Source: an uncultured Monoglobus sp. (GTDB taxonomy: Bacteria > Bacillota > Clostridia > Monoglobales > Monoglobaceae). From it: a stretch of 64,000 bases of DNA. Positions 2,883 to 14,100 of the stretch are shown here, one piece after another. The notes under the pieces were generated by a model. The model did not search any database and was not told the DNA's origin. It saw only the letters and a list, made by a program, of their open reading frames with translations. The stretch lies in contig CANQMT010000008.1 of assembly GCA_947625055.1 (NCBI GenBank), positions 1 through 64,000 of the forward strand, in the 5' to 3' direction. Numbering within the stretch: position 1 is the stretch's first letter; each line of letters starts with the position of its first letter. The position numbers were made by a program, and so were the translations under genes.

Positions 2883-4289
2883 ATGAAGAAATTTATGGAT
2901 AAAGACTTTATGCTGACAAATGATACGGCAAAAAAACTGTATCATGACTTTGCGGCTGATATGCCGATTTTTGATTATCATTGTCATCTGATCCCCCAAA
3001 TGATGTATGAAGACAAACCGTTTGACAATATTACGCAGATCTTTCTCGGCGGCGACCATTACAAGTGGCGCTATATGCGCTCCTGCGGCCTTGATGAGAA
3101 GTATATGACAGGCGACGCGCCTGATCAGGAGAAGTTCAGAGCTTTCTGCTCCGCGCTTCAGTACGGCATAGGCAACCCGCTCTATCACTGGACGCATCTT
3201 GAGCTTCAGAGATATTTCGGCATCGACACGGTCTGCCGCGCCGACACCGCAGACGAGATCTGGGAGAAGGCCAACAAAGTCATAAAAGAGACGCAGATGA
3301 GCCCCGCGAAGCTTATCAACCGGTCAAACGTCGCGGTTATCTGCACGACCGACGATCCTATCGACGATCTTGAGTGGCACAAAAAGATCAAGGAAAAAGG
3401 CCACATCAAGGCGAAGGTCCTGCCCGCTTTCAGACCCGACTTTATGATAAATATTGACAAGCCCACATTTGCGCCCTACATAGAGAAGCTGGCGGCTGTT
3501 TCGGGTGTTGAGATTGACAGCTATGAGGACTTGATCACGGCGATCTACAAGAGGATCGACTACTTCCACGAGGTAGGCAGCCGCGTTTCCGACCACGCGC
3601 TCGACAGCGTTCCCTATGAGGACGTTACAGAGGCCGAGGTCGAGGCTATTTTTAAGAAGGCAATGGCAGGCGAGAAGCTCACTCAGTGTGAGGTTGACGC
3701 TTATAAGAGCATGACGCTTATCAAGCTCGGCGAGAAGTACCACGATCTGGGCTGGGCTTATCAGCTCCACATCGGCGCTCTCCGCAACAACAACACCAGA
3801 ATGTTCGAGAAGCTCGGCGCCGACACAGGCTTTGACTCGATCAGCGACTACTGCATCGCGGCTCCGCTCTCTAAGCTCTTAAACGCGCTTGAGATGAAAA
3901 ACAAGCTGCCCAAGACCATACTCTACACCTTAAATCCCAAGGACAACTACGTTCTCGGAACAATGCTGGGCAACTTCCAGGGCTGCGAGGTCCCGGGCAA
4001 GATCCAGTTCGGTTCCGGCTGGTGGTTCAACGACCAGAGAGACGGCATGACCGAGCAGATGAAGGCTCTGGGCAACCTCGGCGCGCTCAACAAGTTCGTG
4101 GGCATGCTGACCGACTCCAGAAGCTTCCTGTCATACACCCGTCACGAGTATTTCAGAAGAATTATGTGCAACATTCTCGGCGGCTGGGTAGAAGCGGGTG
4201 AGTTCCCTGCGGATATGGACACTCTTGAGACAATAGTCAAGGGCATCTGCTTCAACAACGCCAAGAATTATTTCGGCATAGAGATTTAA
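2883..4289 (+). CDS. uxaC: uronate (glucuronate/galacturonate) isomerase
   Basis: The 468-residue protein belongs to the uronate isomerase family of the amidohydrolase superfamily. It interconverts D-galacturonate and D-tagaturonate (also D-glucuronate and D-fructuronate) in the cytoplasm and is the first step of the isomerase route. The metal-binding motif DYHCHL is near residue 35, and the C-terminal signature DSRSFLSYTRHEYFRR is intact. Length fits the family. I chose the ATG at 2883 because it follows a GGGAGGTAATTATT ribosome site; an upstream in-frame codon would add unrelated residues. It is followed 31 nt later by kdgK, and uxaB and uxaA lie further downstream, so the whole galacturonate-to-KDPG chain is in this locus. 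Confidence 0.96.
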   Translation: MKKFMDKDFMLTNDTAKKLYHDFAADMPIFDYHCHLIPQMMYEDKPFDNITQIFLGGDHYKWRYMRSCGLDEKYMTGDAPDQEKFRAFCSALQYGIGNPLYHWTHLELQRYFGIDTVCRADTADEIWEKANKVIKETQMSPAKLINRSNVAVICTTDDPIDDLEWHKKIKEKGHIKAKVLPAFRPDFMINIDKPTFAPYIEKLAAVSGVEIDSYEDLITAIYKRIDYFHEVGSRVSDHALDSVPYEDVTEAEVEAIFKKAMAGEKLTQCEVDAYKSMTLIKLGEKYHDLGWAYQLHIGALRNNNTRMFEKLGADTGFDSISDYCIAAPLSKLLNALEMKNKLPKTILYTLNPKDNYVLGTMLGNFQGCEVPGKIQFGSGWWFNDQRDGMTEQMKALGNLGALNKFVGMLTDSRSFLSYTRHEYFRRIMCNILGGWVEAGEFPADMDTLETIVKGICFNNAKNYFGIEI

Positions 4290-5403: not shown

Positions 5404-5434
5404 CACAATCTTTGATAAGAAAGGAAGAATGAAT

Positions 5435-8400
5435 ATGAAAACAATGCTTAAAAGAGCGGGCATGATGTTTGTCGCGCTGGCGGTAATACTGAGCTGCGTA
5501 TCGCTTCCCGCGCTCGCGGCCCGGGTAGAGCCCGCGGCGGCCGAAAACCGCGTTCCGGCCTTTCCCGGAGCGGAGGGCGGCGGCATGTGGACGACCGGCG
5601 CCAGAGGCGCCGAGAAGCCCGAGGTCTATCACGTTACCAGCCTTGCCGACAGCGGCGAGGGCTCGTTCCGCGACGCGGTCTCACAGGGGAACCGCATAGT
5701 CGTGTTTGACGTTTCGGGTTATATCGACCTTGACTCAAACGTCAACGTCAGCCACGACAACATGACGATCCTCGGCCAGACGGCGCCCGGCGACGGAATT
5801 TGCTTCCGCGGCAACAACATCAAGATCGGCGGAAACAACGTGATCCTGCGCTATCTGCGCTTCCGCGTGGGCTCAAAGCTCAAGGACGGCTCGGACACCA
5901 AGGCGCAGGACGGACTTGAGGTTCCCGACAACGGCAATAATATCATAATCGACCATTGTTCGGTTTCATGGGGAACGGACGAGAACCTTGCCGCCTACGC
6001 GGTAAAGGACCTGACCGTGCAGTACAGCATAATCTCCGAGGCGCTCAATCAGAGCGTCCATGACAAGGGCGAGCACGGCTACGCGGCGATCTGGGGCGGC
6101 GTCAATATGTCGGTTCATCATAACCTGATCGCCAGTCACAAGAGCCGCAACCCCAAGGTCGGCACATCCGAAACGGTCGCGATGACCGCGGGCTACACCG
6201 ACGCCGAGACGCTTGTTGACATGAAGAACAATGTGTTCTACAACTGGGGCGACAAATGCGGATACGGCACCGAGAACGGAGCAAAGACTTATATTCAGAA
6301 CAATATCTACCGCCCGGGCCCCGCGACGCCCGCGGGCAAGAGAGCGAGAATATTCGAGCTGAGCGTCGGTCAGAAATACGAGACAAACATGCTGGGCAGC
6401 GTGTACGCGGTCGGCAACAGGATCGACGTTGAAGCGAACGACCCCGATTATGCGAATGCTCAAAAGGTAAATGAGAACAACTGGCAGGACGATCTGCACA
6501 CAGGCGTTTATGTTGACAATAAGTTTTACAGCTCTACCGACAAGAGCAAGATGATAATTACCGAGCCCAACGAGCAGTATAAGCAGTACGAGGCGGAGTA
6601 CCCCATAACGCTCGACCCGGTTGACAGCGTTTATGAGGACGTGCTAAGCAACGCGGGCGCGACCCTGCCAAAGCGCGACAAAGTCGACGAGAGAGTTATA
6701 AACGAGGTAAGGACCCGCACCGCGCCGAGCGGCAGCAAGGGCAGCGTGGGCCTTCTGGACGATCCGCTTGACGGCGTTCCCGAGGGCAGCGAGGCCGAGT
6801 ATGACGACCGCGGCTATCCGATTTTCTCAAACGAGACGCGTCCCGCCGATTATGACGCGGACGGCGACGGCATTGCCGACTCGTGGGAGGATAAGATGGG
6901 GCTTAATAAGGAAAACGGGTATGACAGCCTTAAGATCGGCCCCGACGGCTACACATGGCTCGAGATATTCGTTGAGGAGAGCATAGCGGGCGTCAAAGAG
7001 CCCGCGGGCCTTGCGCTCAGCGCCGATGATAAGTATTACAAAACGACCGACACGATCACGGTGACGGCGGCCGAAGGCGGCGCCGCTCCCTCAAACTCGT
7101 GGGTAACGTCCTACGAAAACGGAATTGTGACAGTCGATCCGTCGGCTCAATACGAAAAGGCGGTCGCGGTCGCGGCTTCGTATGACGCGGGCGGCAGTCT
7201 GATCGACAGCAAAAACGCCGAGGTCGACAAAGCCTCGGGCACTGCTAATGTGGGCGAGGTCGCCCAAGGCGCGGTTACAAAGGTTTTCCTGTGGAGCGAT
7301 CTTGACGCGATCGAACCTCTGTGCGAGCCGTACACGGCTGGCGGCGGAGGAAGCGCCGGAGATATAACCGACGTTGAGATCTACTGCAACGACGCTCCCG
7401 CGGCGCAGGCCGAGAATATCGGCGGCGCGTGGACGGCGAATTTGACCGGACTTCCCACAGGCAATAATATACTGACAGCCAAGGCGGAAATGAGCGACGG
7501 CAGCTACAGCTTCAGCCCGATAAAGACCGTTCATGTGATCGGCGCGCAGGAAGCCGAGGGCTGGACAGCCTACGGAGAGGCATCGTATGACGGCGAATGT
7601 TATACTCTGACGTCCGGCTCTGAACTCGACTGTGAAAAGAGCGGAGATTTTAAGCTGGTAGGCAGAATTGATGATATTGACGAGGTCGGCGCGGGTCTCG
7701 GAGCCGACAACAATGATTCGAGCGAAGACGTAATGATCGCTAAAACTCTTAATAAGAATTACGAGCCTACAATAATTTATTATATTGCTACAAGCGGAAC
7801 CGGCGTACCGGAGATCTGGACGCCCACAAGCGGAAGTGCCGAAGATTACTCGCTTTTCGAGATAGAAAAAGCGGGCGGCAAAATCAGATTATACGCCGGC
7901 ACAAGCCTTGCCGACCTTGAAACCAATCTTGTCGCGGAGGGCGATGTCACGAGCGAGACATTCACCGTTTGGGCGTTTATGCTGAAAGAGGGAGGCGTGA
8001 CGGTTGATCCGAACGCGCAGCCGAAAATGTCGGTTTCGAAGTTCAGCATGCTGAAGCTGATCGAGACGGCGACAAATCCCAAGGTTGAGATAACCAATAT
8101 AAACGACAACGACAGGATCGATATAGCGGGATCTGAGCTCAAACTCAATGTCACATCCGACGGCGACACGCCGGTGACCGAGATATGGGTATACTTAAAC
8201 GGCGAGGCTGTCGCCCGCCGCGACGTGAACATAGTCGGTACGCAGGAGGTCACGATACCGCTTGAGTTTGCGGCGCCGACAAAGGGCGCGCTCACGGTTT
8301 ACGCCTTTGACGATAATTTGGGCAGAGGCGAAAAGACGATCAATGTTTCGATCTCGCAGGACGGCTCGCCCTGGCAGCTTGCCGATATAGGCTATGTTCC

Positions 8401-10015
8401 GGGTCAGGCCCAGACCTTCGCCGAGGTGACCGACGATTTCACATTCAAGCTCTATAACTCGTCGACCGGAAATATCGGCGGAACTTCAGACTCGTTCGGC
8501 TACATGTACCAGCAGTTCAGCGGCGACAACAGAGTATATTACAGAAGCCGCCTCAATTCGGGCTCACAGCTCGGACTGTTGATAAAGAGCGATCTTGATC
8601 CCGACGGCGTGACCTATTTCTTCGGCGGCACGTTCGGAGCCGACGGCAAGATCGACTATCAGCTTATGAGAAGAACCGCAAAGGGCGGCAATATGGAGCT
8701 TGTCCAAGATGTTACCGACGTGATTGGCGAGAGCGCGACACAGATGGTGATCGCCGAGAAGATCGGAAACAAGCTCAATATCTATCAGAGCGAGAACAAC
8801 CCCACGGTATACAAGACCAAGACGCTTATAACGAGCGTTGACATTCCCGGTATCGGCGACAGCTACTATATGGGCTTCGGCTTTGTGGGATACGACCCCA
8901 ACGCGTTTATCCCCGATGTGGGCTGGGTATCCACCGAGAAAATAGCCGACGATACCAACAACAGCCTCACTTGGGACTTTGACTACGGTCTTGACTGGCA
9001 GTGGCAGTCGCAGGAGAAGAACGTGCTGCGTCCCTCATGGACACAGAACATGAGCGGCGACAACACAGGCGTTATGGCGATCGAGCCCACCGCCGATTAC
9101 AGCGGCAACCGCTACATCTTCCGCGAGTATATCCCGCAGGACGGCATGACCCCCAACATGAGTGCGGACGTGCTGCTCGCGGGCGACGAACCGTCGCTGA
9201 ATGTCTACTTCCAGACGGGCGACGTTAACAAGGCGTACAAGATAACCTTCTCGGACGACGGAAAGATCTACGCGAACGGAACAGCCGAGGTGGGAGCCTG
9301 GGACGCCGCGGACGGCTGGTACAATGTCAATATAACCACCGATGTGGGCGAAACGGGCGAGACCTCCGCCAAGCTGACTGTCAAGAAGGGCGACACCGTT
9401 GTGGTAGACAACAAGCCTATCGAGATCAGCGCGGGCGGCGAGTTCAGAACTCAGATCAACACCGAAAAGAAGTACGACGTGACAAACGCGGTATACTTCG
9501 AGCCGGTATCGACGGCCAGCGGCAAATATTATATTGACAATGTTAAAATAACCCAGACCAAGCCGAGCGTGACCGTGACAAGAGAGGCGAACTGGTACAC
9601 CTTCAATAAGATAAGCTCGATAAGCGGAGCTTTCACGGTTGACGGAACCACCACTCTTAACGGCGACACAACCACCGGAAAGCAGATCAGCGTAGCTGCG
9701 GGAGCGGAACTCAAGACGGGCGGAAAGAGCCTCGGAACATTGAGCTTCACTAACAGGATACGAATCAAAGGCAACAGCGGAAAGATCACCGTTCCGGTGG
9801 AGAACGGCTCGGTTGTAACGGTCTATGCCGCGTCCGCCAGCTCATCGGAAGCGCGTCCGCTGATAATAGACGGCCAGACTACTAATGTTCAGGGCTTGAC
9901 AGCCGCGACATATGTATATAACGGATCAGGCGGAACTATCGAGATCTCGGGCGGCAACAATATTGAGGTATCCGCGATCTCGGTCGAGAAAGTTACAATA
10001 ACGCCTAACAATTAA
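5435..10015 (+). CDS. very large secreted PL1 pectate lyase, multidomain
   Basis: This 1526-residue exoenzyme has a signal peptide (about 1-28, ending SLPALAA) and a PL1 parallel beta-helix catalytic domain (about 40-455) that opens with the family-typical FPGAEGGG. It contains IIIDHCSVSWG (the counterpart of the vWiDH motif) and a catalytic-Arg motif SRNPK with Arg238. It cleaves polygalacturonate by Ca-dependent beta-elimination. A Ca-binding DADGDGIADSW loop follows near 471, then about 1000 residues of beta-rich Ig-like and carbohydrate-binding-like modules of unassigned family. No SLH repeat, LPXTG motif or dockerin is visible, so how it is retained is unclear. The second ATG was preferred because it is 9 nt from the AAGGA site. 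The partner lyase begins 28 nt after it. Confidence 0.9.
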   Translation: MKTMLKRAGMMFVALAVILSCVSLPALAARVEPAAAENRVPAFPGAEGGGMWTTGARGAEKPEVYHVTSLADSGEGSFRDAVSQGNRIVVFDVSGYIDLDSNVNVSHDNMTILGQTAPGDGICFRGNNIKIGGNNVILRYLRFRVGSKLKDGSDTKAQDGLEVPDNGNNIIIDHCSVSWGTDENLAAYAVKDLTVQYSIISEALNQSVHDKGEHGYAAIWGGVNMSVHHNLIASHKSRNPKVGTSETVAMTAGYTDAETLVDMKNNVFYNWGDKCGYGTENGAKTYIQNNIYRPGPATPAGKRARIFELSVGQKYETNMLGSVYAVGNRIDVEANDPDYANAQKVNENNWQDDLHTGVYVDNKFYSSTDKSKMIITEPNEQYKQYEAEYPITLDPVDSVYEDVLSNAGATLPKRDKVDERVINEVRTRTAPSGSKGSVGLLDDPLDGVPEGSEAEYDDRGYPIFSNETRPADYDADGDGIADSWEDKMGLNKENGYDSLKIGPDGYTWLEIFVEESIAGVKEPAGLALSADDKYYKTTDTITVTAAEGGAAPSNSWVTSYENGIVTVDPSAQYEKAVAVAASYDAGGSLIDSKNAEVDKASGTANVGEVAQGAVTKVFLWSDLDAIEPLCEPYTAGGGGSAGDITDVEIYCNDAPAAQAENIGGAWTANLTGLPTGNNILTAKAEMSDGSYSFSPIKTVHVIGAQEAEGWTAYGEASYDGECYTLTSGSELDCEKSGDFKLVGRIDDIDEVGAGLGADNNDSSEDVMIAKTLNKNYEPTIIYYIATSGTGVPEIWTPTSGSAEDYSLFEIEKAGGKIRLYAGTSLADLETNLVAEGDVTSETFTVWAFMLKEGGVTVDPNAQPKMSVSKFSMLKLIETATNPKVEITNINDNDRIDIAGSELKLNVTSDGDTPVTEIWVYLNGEAVARRDVNIVGTQEVTIPLEFAAPTKGALTVYAFDDNLGRGEKTINVSISQDGSPWQLADIGYVPGQAQTFAEVTDDFTFKLYNSSTGNIGGTSDSFGYMYQQFSGDNRVYYRSRLNSGSQLGLLIKSDLDPDGVTYFFGGTFGADGKIDYQLMRRTAKGGNMELVQDVTDVIGESATQMVIAEKIGNKLNIYQSENNPTVYKTKTLITSVDIPGIGDSYYMGFGFVGYDPNAFIPDVGWVSTEKIADDTNNSLTWDFDYGLDWQWQSQEKNVLRPSWTQNMSGDNTGVMAIEPTADYSGNRYIFREYIPQDGMTPNMSADVLLAGDEPSLNVYFQTGDVNKAYKITFSDDGKIYANGTAEVGAWDAADGWYNVNITTDVGETGETSAKLTVKKGDTVVVDNKPIEISAGGEFRTQINTEKKYDVTNAVYFEPVSTASGKYYIDNVKITQTKPSVTVTREANWYTFNKISSISGAFTVDGTTTLNGDTTTGKQISVAAGAELKTGGKSLGTLSFTNRIRIKGNSGKITVPVENGSVVTVYAASASSSEARPLIIDGQTTNVQGLTAATYVYNGSGGTIEISGGNNIEVSAISVEKVTITPNN

Positions 10016-10042: not shown

Positions 10043-13000
10043 ATGAGAAAGAATTTTAAACGAGTTTCTTCAATAATAATAGCGCTTGCTATGGTATTGA
10101 CCCTCGTCCCCGCCGCTTTCGCGGCAGAGGCGGGGCTGCCCGAAAACGACACGGCGCCGATAGTCTCGCCCGAGCAAGCGAAGGCCGATAATGTCGCCGC
10201 GTTTCCGGGCGCCGAGGGCGGCGGAAAATACACCACAGGCGGCAGAGGCGGCGAGGTGTACCACGTCACCAATTTAAACGACGACGGCCCCGGCTCGCTG
10301 CGCGAGGGCGTCAGCAAGCCCAACCGCACGATCGTGTTCGACGTCGGCGGAACCATACACTTAAAGTCCGACCTGAGGCTTGAGAACCCCAACATCACGA
10401 TCGCGGGACAGACAGCGCCCGGCGACGGTATCTGCCTCGGAGACTACAACCTGATGATCTACACCGACAACGTTATCGTGCGCTATATCCGCGTTCGCCC
10501 CGGCGACATTTCCCAGACCGAGAACGACGCGATATTCGCGAGATATTATAAGGACATAATCATCGACCATTGCTCCACGAGCTGGTCTACCGACGAGACA
10601 ATGTCGCTCTACGGCGTTGCAAACACCACGGTGCAGTGGTGCTATATCACCGAGAGTCTGACGTTGGCGCGCCACGCAAAGGGCCGTCACGGCTACGGCG
10701 GAATCTGGGGCGGCTACAACACGACCTATCATCACAACTTAGTCGCCACCCACACAAGCCGTCTGCCCAGGTACCACGGCGTCAAGGACTCGCACCCCGA
10801 TTATAAGATCAGCGATACCGACGCATTAAGCAGCAACGACGAGGTCAACAACGTTATCTACAACTGGGGCTTCAACAACGGCTACGGCGGCGGCGGAGTC
10901 ACCCTCAACTTCATGAACAACTACTACAAGAGCGGTCCGATAACCAACAAGGACGTGCTCGACAGGATCTGGAACCCCGGCGGCACTACCATGTACTGCG
11001 CGGGCAACGTGCTTGAGGGCAACGAGGAAGTCACAAACGACAACATGAAGGGAATCGACGTTGACGAGAGCGGCGACGAGACGGTATTCCTCGACGCGCC
11101 GACCTATGAAAACGGCCTTATCCCCCTTGACAATATCGACACGGCGGAGGAAGCCTATGAGAAGGTCCTGGCCTCCGCGGGAGCGACCATACCGAGGCGC
11201 GACAGCTATGACGCGAGGATAACCAACGACGTCAAAAACGGCACAGGCCGCTCGATAAACAACGAGGCCGAGGTCGGAGGCTGGCCCGAGCTCAAGTCGG
11301 GCGAGGCGAAGCCCGACACCGACGGCGACGGAATGCCCGACGAGTATGAGGACTCTCACGATCTCGATAAGAATGATCCCTCCGACGGCTCTGTTATAAC
11401 CGAAAACGGCAGGACCAACCTTGAGAATTATCTGAACTCTATCGTTGAGAACGCGGCTGCACCCGCAAATCCCGATGTTGATTTGAATATTGAGAACAAC
11501 GCGATCTATGATTACGGTGAGACTATCAATATGAAGGCCGAGGCAAGCGGCAAAGAGGGCAGAAGCATATCCGAGGTTCGGTTCTACAGAAACGACGAGC
11601 TGCTTTACACCGACGATTCCGCGCCCTATGAGTACAGCTACAGCGGCGCGCCCGAGGGTATCTCGTTCATGTCGGCCAAGGCGGTTGACAGCGCGGGCGA
11701 GTCGACGACTTCGGATATTAAAGTGATAAACGTAAACTACACCGAAGCGCCCAGCGACTGGAACACAATGGACATCGGCGAGGCGACAATGCCCGGCAGC
11801 TATTCGCTGCACGACGGGATTTATACCGTCAAGAGCAGCGGCCTTATCGGCGCGGGCAACGAGTTCAACGTTATGGACGGCGACGAGGGCACCGACGCGT
11901 TCAGCTATATGTACAAAGAGGCGGATACAAACGCGGTGCTGTCGACCAAGATCGACTCGGTTTCAAAGTTCAACAACAACTGCGTCAGCGGAATCATGTT
12001 CCGCGACGAGCTGACCCCAACATCCGACTTCGTTATGGTAAACTATGAGCACGAGAAGGGCGGAGCGGGCCTGTCGTTTAAGTACAGGATCGGCGGCAAG
12101 ATGACCAAGAACTTCATCGTTCTCTCCGAGCTGCCCAGATATATCAAGCTGATAAAGATCGGCAATACCGTCACCGGCTATCACAGCATCAACGGCGTTG
12201 ACTGGGAGTATTTTGACAGCGTGGAAATGAGCTTTGGCGGAACCAACTACGGCGGAATCGCGCAGGACGGCAACAAGGAGACAAACCAAATCTCAACCTA
12301 TGCCTGGGGCAAGTTCACAGACTTAAATCTTGAGAACTACGGCGAGAACAAGCTCCCCGATATCGAGATGCGCACCGGCACGGCGGGCGAGCAGAACGGG
12401 GTCAATCCCAGCACATTATTATGGCAGGATAAATCCCAGTTTAACGTAGGCGACAGAGTGGACCTCAAGATCGCTTCGAGCGAGCTTGAGACGGCCGACA
12501 AGCTTGAGATATACTTGGACGGTAAGCTGTATAAGAGCTCCGACGTGGTTTATGAGCACGAGTCGGTAACGATCGACGAGCCGGGCAACCACTATATCAC
12601 GGCGGTCATCTATGACGCTGACGGCGCGAAGAACAGCGCCACTCAGAATGTGGGCGTTTCAAATGTGAGCGGCGGCTGGCAGACTTCCGAGATACACTAT
12701 CCCAAGGACATTCAGGCTGACGGAACCACGATCAGACACGGCGCGTTCGATTTAGACGGCAGCACACTCAGGATAAACGGCACGGGCTACGGCATTGAGG
12801 GCGTTGAGAATGAGGAATACCCGATGATGTATAAGCAGCTCACCGGCGACTTTGAGGCTTCGTTCAAGGTTGACGAGCAGACCCTCGCCGACTACGACCA
12901 TATGGGCTTTGTTGTCAAGAATTCCCTTGATCCGCAGGAGGACGGCACGTCATACGCGGCGTACCACGAGATCTACTACGGCGAGATGTTCAGAAAAACG

Positions 13001-13891
13001 AGCGAGTACGGTAAGAAGTATGATCTTATCGGTCAGCAGAAGTACAAGAAGCTGCCGGTTTGGATACGCCTCACAAAGACCGGAAAGACGCTCAAAATGG
13101 ACTACTCGCAGAACGGAACCGACTGGATCGACGTTGGAACCGAGGAAAACTGCAATATAAACGACACCTATTACCTTGGCGTGTTCGGAGCGTCGAACGA
13201 GGAGTTTAAGATCTCGAACTTCACGATGAGCGACTTCAGCGTCAGGACGCAGGATGCCTCTTTGAGCAACTATGTCGATCTCGCCGGATATGAGTGGGCG
13301 GAGCCCGCGATAAGCGGACTGACCGCGCGCGGCATAGTAAACGGCGACGTGAACCCTGTGACGGGCGACCGTTACTATTTCCCGGGCGATAATGTGACCC
13401 GCGCCGAGTTTGCCAAGATGGTGGTGTCTGCTGTTGAAAGTGAAATTCCTTCTGTAAAAGGTTTGACGGTTTCGCCTTATTTTAGCGACGTATCACCCGA
13501 TGACTGGTATTATGAATATGTCGGAAAAGCATATTTGCTGGCTTTAATTCGCGGAACAAGTAAGGAAGCCATGATATTTGAACCCGATCGTCCGATCACG
13601 AGAGAAGAAATGGCTGCAATTGTTTCCGCAGCGGATAACTATGAGACCGTTGTTAAGGATGTTGGCAACGTAACGGATGTTTCGGCTTATGTTGCCGGAT
13701 TGATCAATGGCAAAACGCTGACGGATTTGTATACGGATTCGGCAATTGTTTCCGATTGGGCTGAACGCGATGTATTGCAGGCAACCGCTCTCGGCATTAT
13801 GCAAGGTGACGAAAATCATTGCTTTAATCCGCTTGATTTTGCCGATAGAGCCGAAGCGGCGCAGGTAATTTACAATTTCGTAACAAAATAG
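10043..13891 (+). CDS. SLH-anchored PL1 pectate lyase
   Basis: The 1282-residue protein has a signal peptide (about 1-27) and a PL1 catalytic beta-helix (about 50-415) with FPGAEGGG, IIIDHCSTSWS and catalytic Arg240 in SRLPR. A DTDGDGMPDEY Ca-binding loop (about 425-437) and an Ig-like module follow, then two similar laminin-G/DUF1349-like sandwich modules (about 570-770 and 870-1060). The end is a run of SLH repeats (about 1077-1282) that should bind the secondary wall polymer and display the enzyme at the cell surface. It is the anchored companion of the preceding lyase. Base use changes sharply at about 13425: the last 150 codons are clearly more AT-rich than the rest, as if the SLH tail had been exchanged by recombination. 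Confidence 0.93.
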   Translation: MRKNFKRVSSIIIALAMVLTLVPAAFAAEAGLPENDTAPIVSPEQAKADNVAAFPGAEGGGKYTTGGRGGEVYHVTNLNDDGPGSLREGVSKPNRTIVFDVGGTIHLKSDLRLENPNITIAGQTAPGDGICLGDYNLMIYTDNVIVRYIRVRPGDISQTENDAIFARYYKDIIIDHCSTSWSTDETMSLYGVANTTVQWCYITESLTLARHAKGRHGYGGIWGGYNTTYHHNLVATHTSRLPRYHGVKDSHPDYKISDTDALSSNDEVNNVIYNWGFNNGYGGGGVTLNFMNNYYKSGPITNKDVLDRIWNPGGTTMYCAGNVLEGNEEVTNDNMKGIDVDESGDETVFLDAPTYENGLIPLDNIDTAEEAYEKVLASAGATIPRRDSYDARITNDVKNGTGRSINNEAEVGGWPELKSGEAKPDTDGDGMPDEYEDSHDLDKNDPSDGSVITENGRTNLENYLNSIVENAAAPANPDVDLNIENNAIYDYGETINMKAEASGKEGRSISEVRFYRNDELLYTDDSAPYEYSYSGAPEGISFMSAKAVDSAGESTTSDIKVINVNYTEAPSDWNTMDIGEATMPGSYSLHDGIYTVKSSGLIGAGNEFNVMDGDEGTDAFSYMYKEADTNAVLSTKIDSVSKFNNNCVSGIMFRDELTPTSDFVMVNYEHEKGGAGLSFKYRIGGKMTKNFIVLSELPRYIKLIKIGNTVTGYHSINGVDWEYFDSVEMSFGGTNYGGIAQDGNKETNQISTYAWGKFTDLNLENYGENKLPDIEMRTGTAGEQNGVNPSTLLWQDKSQFNVGDRVDLKIASSELETADKLEIYLDGKLYKSSDVVYEHESVTIDEPGNHYITAVIYDADGAKNSATQNVGVSNVSGGWQTSEIHYPKDIQADGTTIRHGAFDLDGSTLRINGTGYGIEGVENEEYPMMYKQLTGDFEASFKVDEQTLADYDHMGFVVKNSLDPQEDGTSYAAYHEIYYGEMFRKTSEYGKKYDLIGQQKYKKLPVWIRLTKTGKTLKMDYSQNGTDWIDVGTEENCNINDTYYLGVFGASNEEFKISNFTMSDFSVRTQDASLSNYVDLAGYEWAEPAISGLTARGIVNGDVNPVTGDRYYFPGDNVTRAEFAKMVVSAVESEIPSVKGLTVSPYFSDVSPDDWYYEYVGKAYLLALIRGTSKEAMIFEPDRPITREEMAAIVSAADNYETVVKDVGNVTDVSAYVAGLINGKTLTDLYTDSAIVSDWAERDVLQATALGIMQGDENHCFNPLDFADRAEAAQVIYNFVTK

Positions 13892-14005
13892 GTGCAAATT
13901 TAATAAGAAACACTATTGATTTTTATGTAAAAAGCACAAAAAATAAGGAAAATATATGCTGATTAAGGTTTTATTGTGATTTTTGCAAAATCCATAGATT
14001 TTTTC

Positions 14006-14034
14006 TTGATTTTTTTGTGCAAATCTTATATAAT
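14006..14034 (+). promoter_or_regulatory. promoter of oligogalacturonide ABC importer genes
   Basis: TTGATT (14006-14011) and TATAAT (14029-14034) are separated by 17 nt in a very AT-rich gap that follows the SLH lyase gene. Confidence 0.7.
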
Positions 14035-14050
14035 ATATACAGCAAAATAA

Positions 14051-14064
14051 TTAGGGCACCCTAA
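14051..14064 (+). promoter_or_regulatory. possible operator palindrome downstream of importer promoter
   Basis: TTAGGGCACCCTAA has perfect 6-nt arms around a CA centre and begins about 16 nt after the -10 box, so it would overlap the start of the transcript. That position suits a repressor site, but no binding protein can be named. Confidence 0.35.
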
Positions 14065-14100
14065 GCCCAAAACAAATATATAGTAGGGGAGGAAAATGCT

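Follow-up and report, generated by a model that had tools for sequence, protein, structure and literature searches.

Part of the cell-wall anchor of a pectate-lyase-like gene has most likely been exchanged by recombination in an uncultured Monoglobus sp. We analysed a window of 64,000 nucleotides (the whole stretch of DNA, positions 1 to 64,000 of contig CANQMT010000008.1), in which positions 10043-13891 of the forward strand form an open reading frame for a secreted product of 1282 amino acids. The best explanation for the 3' part of this gene is an in-frame recombinational replacement of positions 13421-13792 by a homologous, non-orthologous SLH block, with native flanks on both sides and an inherited AT-richness of the 3' end. 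Against it count the facts that none of our searches found a donor and that a single assembled genome is the source of the block.

Composition and orthology of the SLH tail

The product comprises a catalytic part, an Ig-like domain, a DUF1349-like region and a C-terminal SLH trimer. Pfam recognizes three SLH domains and a Big_7 domain, the DUF1349-like region falling under the Pfam cut-off, and the closest solved structure for the catalytic part is the pectate lyase 9buj (phmmer, E 1.5e-62). The PF00395 scores of the three SLH domains are 27.6, 38.1 and 34.3 bits (curated cut-off 20.8). All parts described here lie on the forward strand. SLH1 (13271-13414, delimited by PF00395, motif position and ortholog identity) is native; its TRAE motif occupies 13397-13408 and is followed by FAKM up to 13420. 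The replaced block (13421-13792, 124 codons, 372 bases), delimited by an interval scan against orthologs and by GC3, contains the entire SLH2 (13481-13615), the long linker that connects SLH2 to SLH3, and helix 1 of SLH3. The end of SLH3 (13793-13891), native by its nucleotide identity to orthologs, holds the GIIxG motif GIMQG (13793-13807), DRAE (13844-13855) and the stop codon. The 3' flank preceding an ABC permease gene (13892-14100), aligned to orthologs, is native as well.

The first-pass annotation placed an abrupt change in composition at about position 13425, and a GC3 profile confirms it: the single best change point falls at codon 1128 (base 13427), with a GC3 of 0.759 upstream and 0.383 downstream, and its likelihood gain of 42.0 was reached in none of 1000 permutations (permuted maximum 11.3). 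Amino-acid content is not the cause of this drop, as the tail has a GC3 of 0.371 against 0.738 expected from its amino acids (151 codons, z -10.7). The 1100 preceding codons had been described as uniform, which is nearly right: 155-codon windows within the first ~1127 codons range from z -2.74 to +2.39, with a mild GC3 dip near codons 440-480. We also rejected two general causes by using 57 SLH frames from the same genome. SLH regions are not AT-rich in general, nor are all SLH tails alike in composition, as the difference in GC3 between SLH region and rest of the frame is lowest in the lyase (-0.28), followed by -0.08. Gene ends are not AT-rich in general either (in GC3, the last 33 codons differ from the rest by a mean of -0.024, SD 0.091, over the 57 frames including the lyase, and by -0.33 in the lyase).

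Our search set contained 60 genomes, namely the genome carrying the lyase (G000) and 59 related ones. Long matches heading the list led us to accept 13 orthologs, from the same genus (G001-G009 and G011) and from other genera of the family (G013, G015 and G021); in this search, G010, of the same genus, had no long ortholog match to the lyase. Seven are close orthologs (G002, G003, G004, G005, G006, G009 and G011), with a DNA identity to G000 of 0.84-0.95 in the segments as far as residue 1127 (0.86-0.92 for residues 1061-1127). Against all seven, the interval scan finds a block of divergence that starts at residue 1127 and stops at 1247 or 1250, with edges at 13421-13792 (against G003, G004, G006 and G002) or 13421-13783 (against G005, G009 and G011). 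Likelihood gains are 106-167, compared with at most 19.5 in 100 shuffles each, and nucleotide identity is 0.47-0.52 inside the block and 0.87-0.94 outside. For the nearest ortholog, G003, identity is 0.52 inside and 0.94 outside (gain 167, compared with at most 16 in 100 shuffles).

The block has a GC3 of 0.395 over its 124 codons. It is extremely unlikely that the AT-richness of the tail is entirely ancestral, with no exchange in G000: the last 39 codons are indeed AT-rich in all seven close orthologs (GC3 0.41-0.49), but residues 1128-1243 have a GC3 of 0.59-0.64 in every one of them, against 0.38 in G000, where this segment is non-orthologous. The outgroups G013 and G021 carry a short form, which is GC-rich and 0.69-0.70 identical to G005 over residues 1128-1195. 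Over the same residues G013 is just 0.49 identical to G000, while body identities are equal. As the outgroups carry the short GC-rich form, the state of G000 is derived.

Rapid in-place divergence under relaxed or positive selection, together with local composition drift and no recombination, is a very improbable alternative. Synonymous composition shifts abruptly at the edge, and within a few codons identity drops to the level of unrelated SLH repeats and recovers likewise. The SLH2-SLH3 linker region does vary between all distant orthologs, as would suit such divergence, but the block also includes SLH2, whose nucleotide identity to G005 is 0.81-0.96 in the other seven close orthologs. Part of the contrast on the 3' side could still be fast divergence, since segment 1196-1250 is variable across the whole group.

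These comparisons show that, as judged from its sequence, the replaced block is homologous but non-orthologous, AT-rich and in frame, and that both flanks are native. Recombination is strongly supported because the block is non-orthologous, its flanks are orthologous and the outgroups carry the other form. The first-pass annotation had proposed that the anchor module was replaced by recombination with another SLH gene; the recombination stands, but the exchange does not cover the whole module, as SLH1 through TRAE and SLH3 from GIIxG are native. Replacement of the whole tail was likewise rejected, the last 32 codons and the 3' flank being native.

Two side observations concern neighbouring sequences. 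The intergenic segment 13961-14040 is 0.95-0.99 identical across G000 and seven relatives. Positions 14006-14034 read TTGATT-17-TATAAT, which we take, by eye and against the consensus, to be a predicted sigma-70-like promoter preceding the ABC transporter genes. In the upstream lyase-like gene (5429-10015), identity over the last ~490 residues is 88-89% to G003 and G009, but only 45% to G005 and 54% to G013, and this gene looks mosaic as well.

The inherited 3' end and the source of the block

Positions 13793-13888 are 0.91-0.96 identical to six of the seven close orthologs at the nucleotide level, and 0.84 identical to G006; over the last 39 codons, G000 is 0.74-0.87 identical to the seven. 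This identity marks the AT-rich codons between 13793 and the stop as inherited. The tail had been described as AT-rich to the stop codon, but the description merges two causes, the last 32-39 codons being orthologous and AT-rich in all seven close orthologs. The gene body may have been joined to this AT-rich end in an older exchange, one edge of which lay close to the same 3' motif. In the body (residues 50-1060), G000 and the seven close orthologs are 0.80-0.87 identical to G013, which belongs to another genus, and 0.63-0.70 identical to the congener G001; in the last 32 codons this order is reversed (0.62-0.69 to G013, 0.78-0.82 to G001), with G001 and G013 just 0.60 identical to each other. 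The reversal suggests the older exchange, without proving it. We also weighed a G004-like origin of the 3' end, which has the support of three sites in two adjacent codons.

At the DNA level, the block has no near match in its own genome or in 51 genomes of the order, and 391 genomes of the class gave short matches of 24-49 bases only. Pattern scans of viral contigs and of GTDB yielded no donor (GTDB gave one distant relative), and neither did plasmids searched by DNA or phages searched by protein. The near-identical SLH tail that might have been expected elsewhere was thus not found in the genome itself or in its relatives. Conversion from a present-day paralog in the same genome was rejected, as that genome holds no near match.

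At the protein level, the best match to the block without its flanks among 38 family genomes is the G008 ortholog (51.6 bits), with several other orthologs near the top, and the same ortholog is also the best match among the 391 class genomes. In the plasmid collection, the best protein match is the syntenic gene of Monoglobus pectinilyticus. Moreover, the block retains 18 of the 21 columns that are invariant among the 13 orthologs, and AT-rich orthologs do exist (G001 and G008, GC3 about 0.36-0.44). All this argues that the donor was not a different SLH gene but a divergent ortholog of the lyase, carried by an AT-rich relative outside the sampled genomes, so that alleles were exchanged between species. 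We regard such a donor as a serious possibility without favouring it. A profile built from the 13 orthologs ranks the block beneath 36 non-ortholog rows among the matches listed, some of which are repeat loci of one gene; non-orthologous SLH genes of G060, G009, G002 and G016 reach scores equal to those of most orthologs, and the block is only ~45-55% identical to any ortholog. A tree of 50 columns leaves the block unplaced, and a clade with the orthologs is not rejected (p-AU 0.27).

The M. pectinilyticus locus lies on NZ_OY725728.1 (L189), labelled plasmid 4, and is syntenic (SLH lyase, ABC permeases, binding protein, pectinesterase and GH28). Several M. pectinilyticus records of 78-518 kb match the lyase, and the plasmid label may be doubtful.

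The hybrid anchor and known systems

The hybrid tail is predicted to keep the three-domain SLH fold. Its structural model has a mean pLDDT of 83.6 and drops under 50 only in model residues 1-7 and, within the long linker, 136-146; in a structure search against the PDB all 15 matches with E <0.001 are SLH structures of Sap or SpaA. Each SLH domain carries a TRAE-type motif with its arginine (TRAE, TREE and DRAE at residues 1119, 1186 and 1268). The GIIxG-type loops of SLH1 to SLH3 are GIVNG, ALIRG and GIMQG, the second glycine being present in all three and the first absent in SLH2. We infer that the product is still a working three-domain anchor.

The lyase resembles the SLH trimer anchors (PF00395) described in PMC6081394, Sap of Bacillus anthracis and SpaA of Paenibacillus alvei, in having three domains, a TRAE-type and a GIIxG-type motif in each, and the same fold. 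It differs from both in its SLH2 loop ALIRG (first glycine lost), in its long, low-confidence SLH2-SLH3 linker and in its two sources. According to PMC6081394, the arginine of TRAE in SLH1, the loop of SLH2 and the tryptophan of SLH3 together form G2, the main groove of SpaA. In the lyase, the SLH1 TRAE arginine is native, while the SLH2 loop and the SLH3 tryptophan come from the block. By analogy with SpaA, the swap would renew most of the polymer-binding groove around the retained arginine, and binding to the polymer of the cell wall (for SLH anchors, pyruvylated secondary cell wall polymer) may be retuned by it. Where G000 has ALIRG in its SLH2 loop, G006 has GLVRG and the other six close orthologs have GLVQG.

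Intragenic homologous recombination in bacteria leaves mosaics with sharp steps in identity and composition between native flanks. Unlike such mosaics in general, the exchanged part here is the cell-wall-binding pocket, with edges at two SLH motifs. Recombinational switching of the slpA S-layer cassette of Clostridioides difficile was reportedly described by Dingle and co-workers in 2013. As in slpA, according to PMC12680318, a surface-protein locus is varied by block recombination and not by point changes. There, however, the change affects the variable S-layer protein, and the anchor belongs to the CWB2 type (PMC12680318), whereas in the lyase the changed part lies inside the SLH wall-binding trimer of an enzyme and spans 372 bases only. 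The event runs in frame from motif to motif, and the position of its joints is unusual. Among the papers listed on recombination or transfer of SLH domains, in a coverage with few subscription journals, none describes exchange inside SLH domains.

These features suggest that recombination can give surface anchors a new sugar-binding pocket, and that exchange below the domain level, with joints at groove-forming motifs, would be open to the wall anchor of a surface enzyme acting on pectin. The lyase may serve as a natural chimera for probing which parts of SLH domains set specificity. It also calls for caution, as SLH-based trees and domain annotations can blend two histories within one repeat array.

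Joints and comparable changes in relatives

The 5' joint directly follows TRAEFAKM of SLH1 (first differing base 13421), and the 3' joint coincides with the start of the SLH3 GIIxG motif, where G000 and six of the seven close orthologs agree in all 24 bases from 13793 to 13816. According to PMC6081394, TRAE and GIIxG are the SLH motifs of high conservation. Homologous recombination with imported DNA would have used these two most conserved stretches as joints. At the 5' joint, 20 nt are common with a paralog from the same genome (95th percentile of the body: 12), and at the 3' joint only 12 nt are common with such paralogs, a point against recombination there.

The location of the joints in conserved stretches, in a genome assembled into 47 contigs, would also suit an assembly chimera, in which the block belongs to another organism of the sample and was joined via the conserved motifs. 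We nevertheless consider a chimera improbable: within an 86-kb contig, the assembly would have had to cross over twice, 372 bases apart and in frame, and to end up in the gene it had left, and separately assembled relatives show comparable block changes.

The 20 bases shared exactly with the 5' joint lie in SLH1 of a gene on contig C47 of G000 (L127, frame from locus base 4091). The surface protein that it encodes is the reverse of the lyase, being AT-rich in its codons (GC3 0.26) but less so in its N-terminal SLH anchor (GC3 0.52); over residues 2-243 it matches a G002 protein at 71% identity, to which the remainder has no match. We rejected it as the reciprocal product, since its SLH2-3 is not the donor (33% identity), and the GC3 step inside its SLH region (9.1) is no stronger than the shuffled maximum (9.3).

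Compared with G005, G006 carries a block of its own that spans residues 1196-1250 and has the same 3' edge as that of G000; identity is 0.42 within it and 0.85 outside (gain 51.9, maximum of the shuffles 13.9). In sliding windows, G004 shows the same drop at 1196-1250, with identities by segment of 0.96, 0.48 and 0.93, its strongest scan interval being residues 780-842 and not 1196-1250; no donor for the G004 block was found in 38 family genomes. At reference residues 780-842, outside the SLH region, the G004 gene (L040) is 0.54 identical to that of G005 (L035), against 0.92 elsewhere. Residues 1196-1250 thus occur as three block types between species (G005-type, G004 and G006) in addition to that of G000, each species being represented by one genome. 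Since this segment is variable group-wide, a reading as repeated exchange rests mainly on the sharp return of identity at the 3' motif.

We also surveyed SLH genes against G003, using pairs with a rest-of-gene identity >0.85 (22 genes with 35 between-motif blocks, 26 genes with 57 within-motif blocks). The lyase accounts for the three largest drops, and the next two are in one gene on contig C5 (L098), the only other gene with a comparable drop, so that such exchange events are uncommon. In the 867-aa SLH protein encoded by the contig C5 gene, residues ~736-775, between TRAE and GIIxG, are 0.65 identical against 0.93 elsewhere. It is conceivable, if rather doubtful, that the conserved TRAE and GIIxG motifs act as recurrent joints at which the binding pocket is swapped between species as a block; several events (in G000, in G004, in G006 and the older one at the AT-rich end) would then share the 3' edge, with one more in the contig C5 gene. 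Elsewhere in G000, contigs C3 and C1 encode very large surface proteins, their open frames with SLH matches measuring 10245 and 6649 aa.
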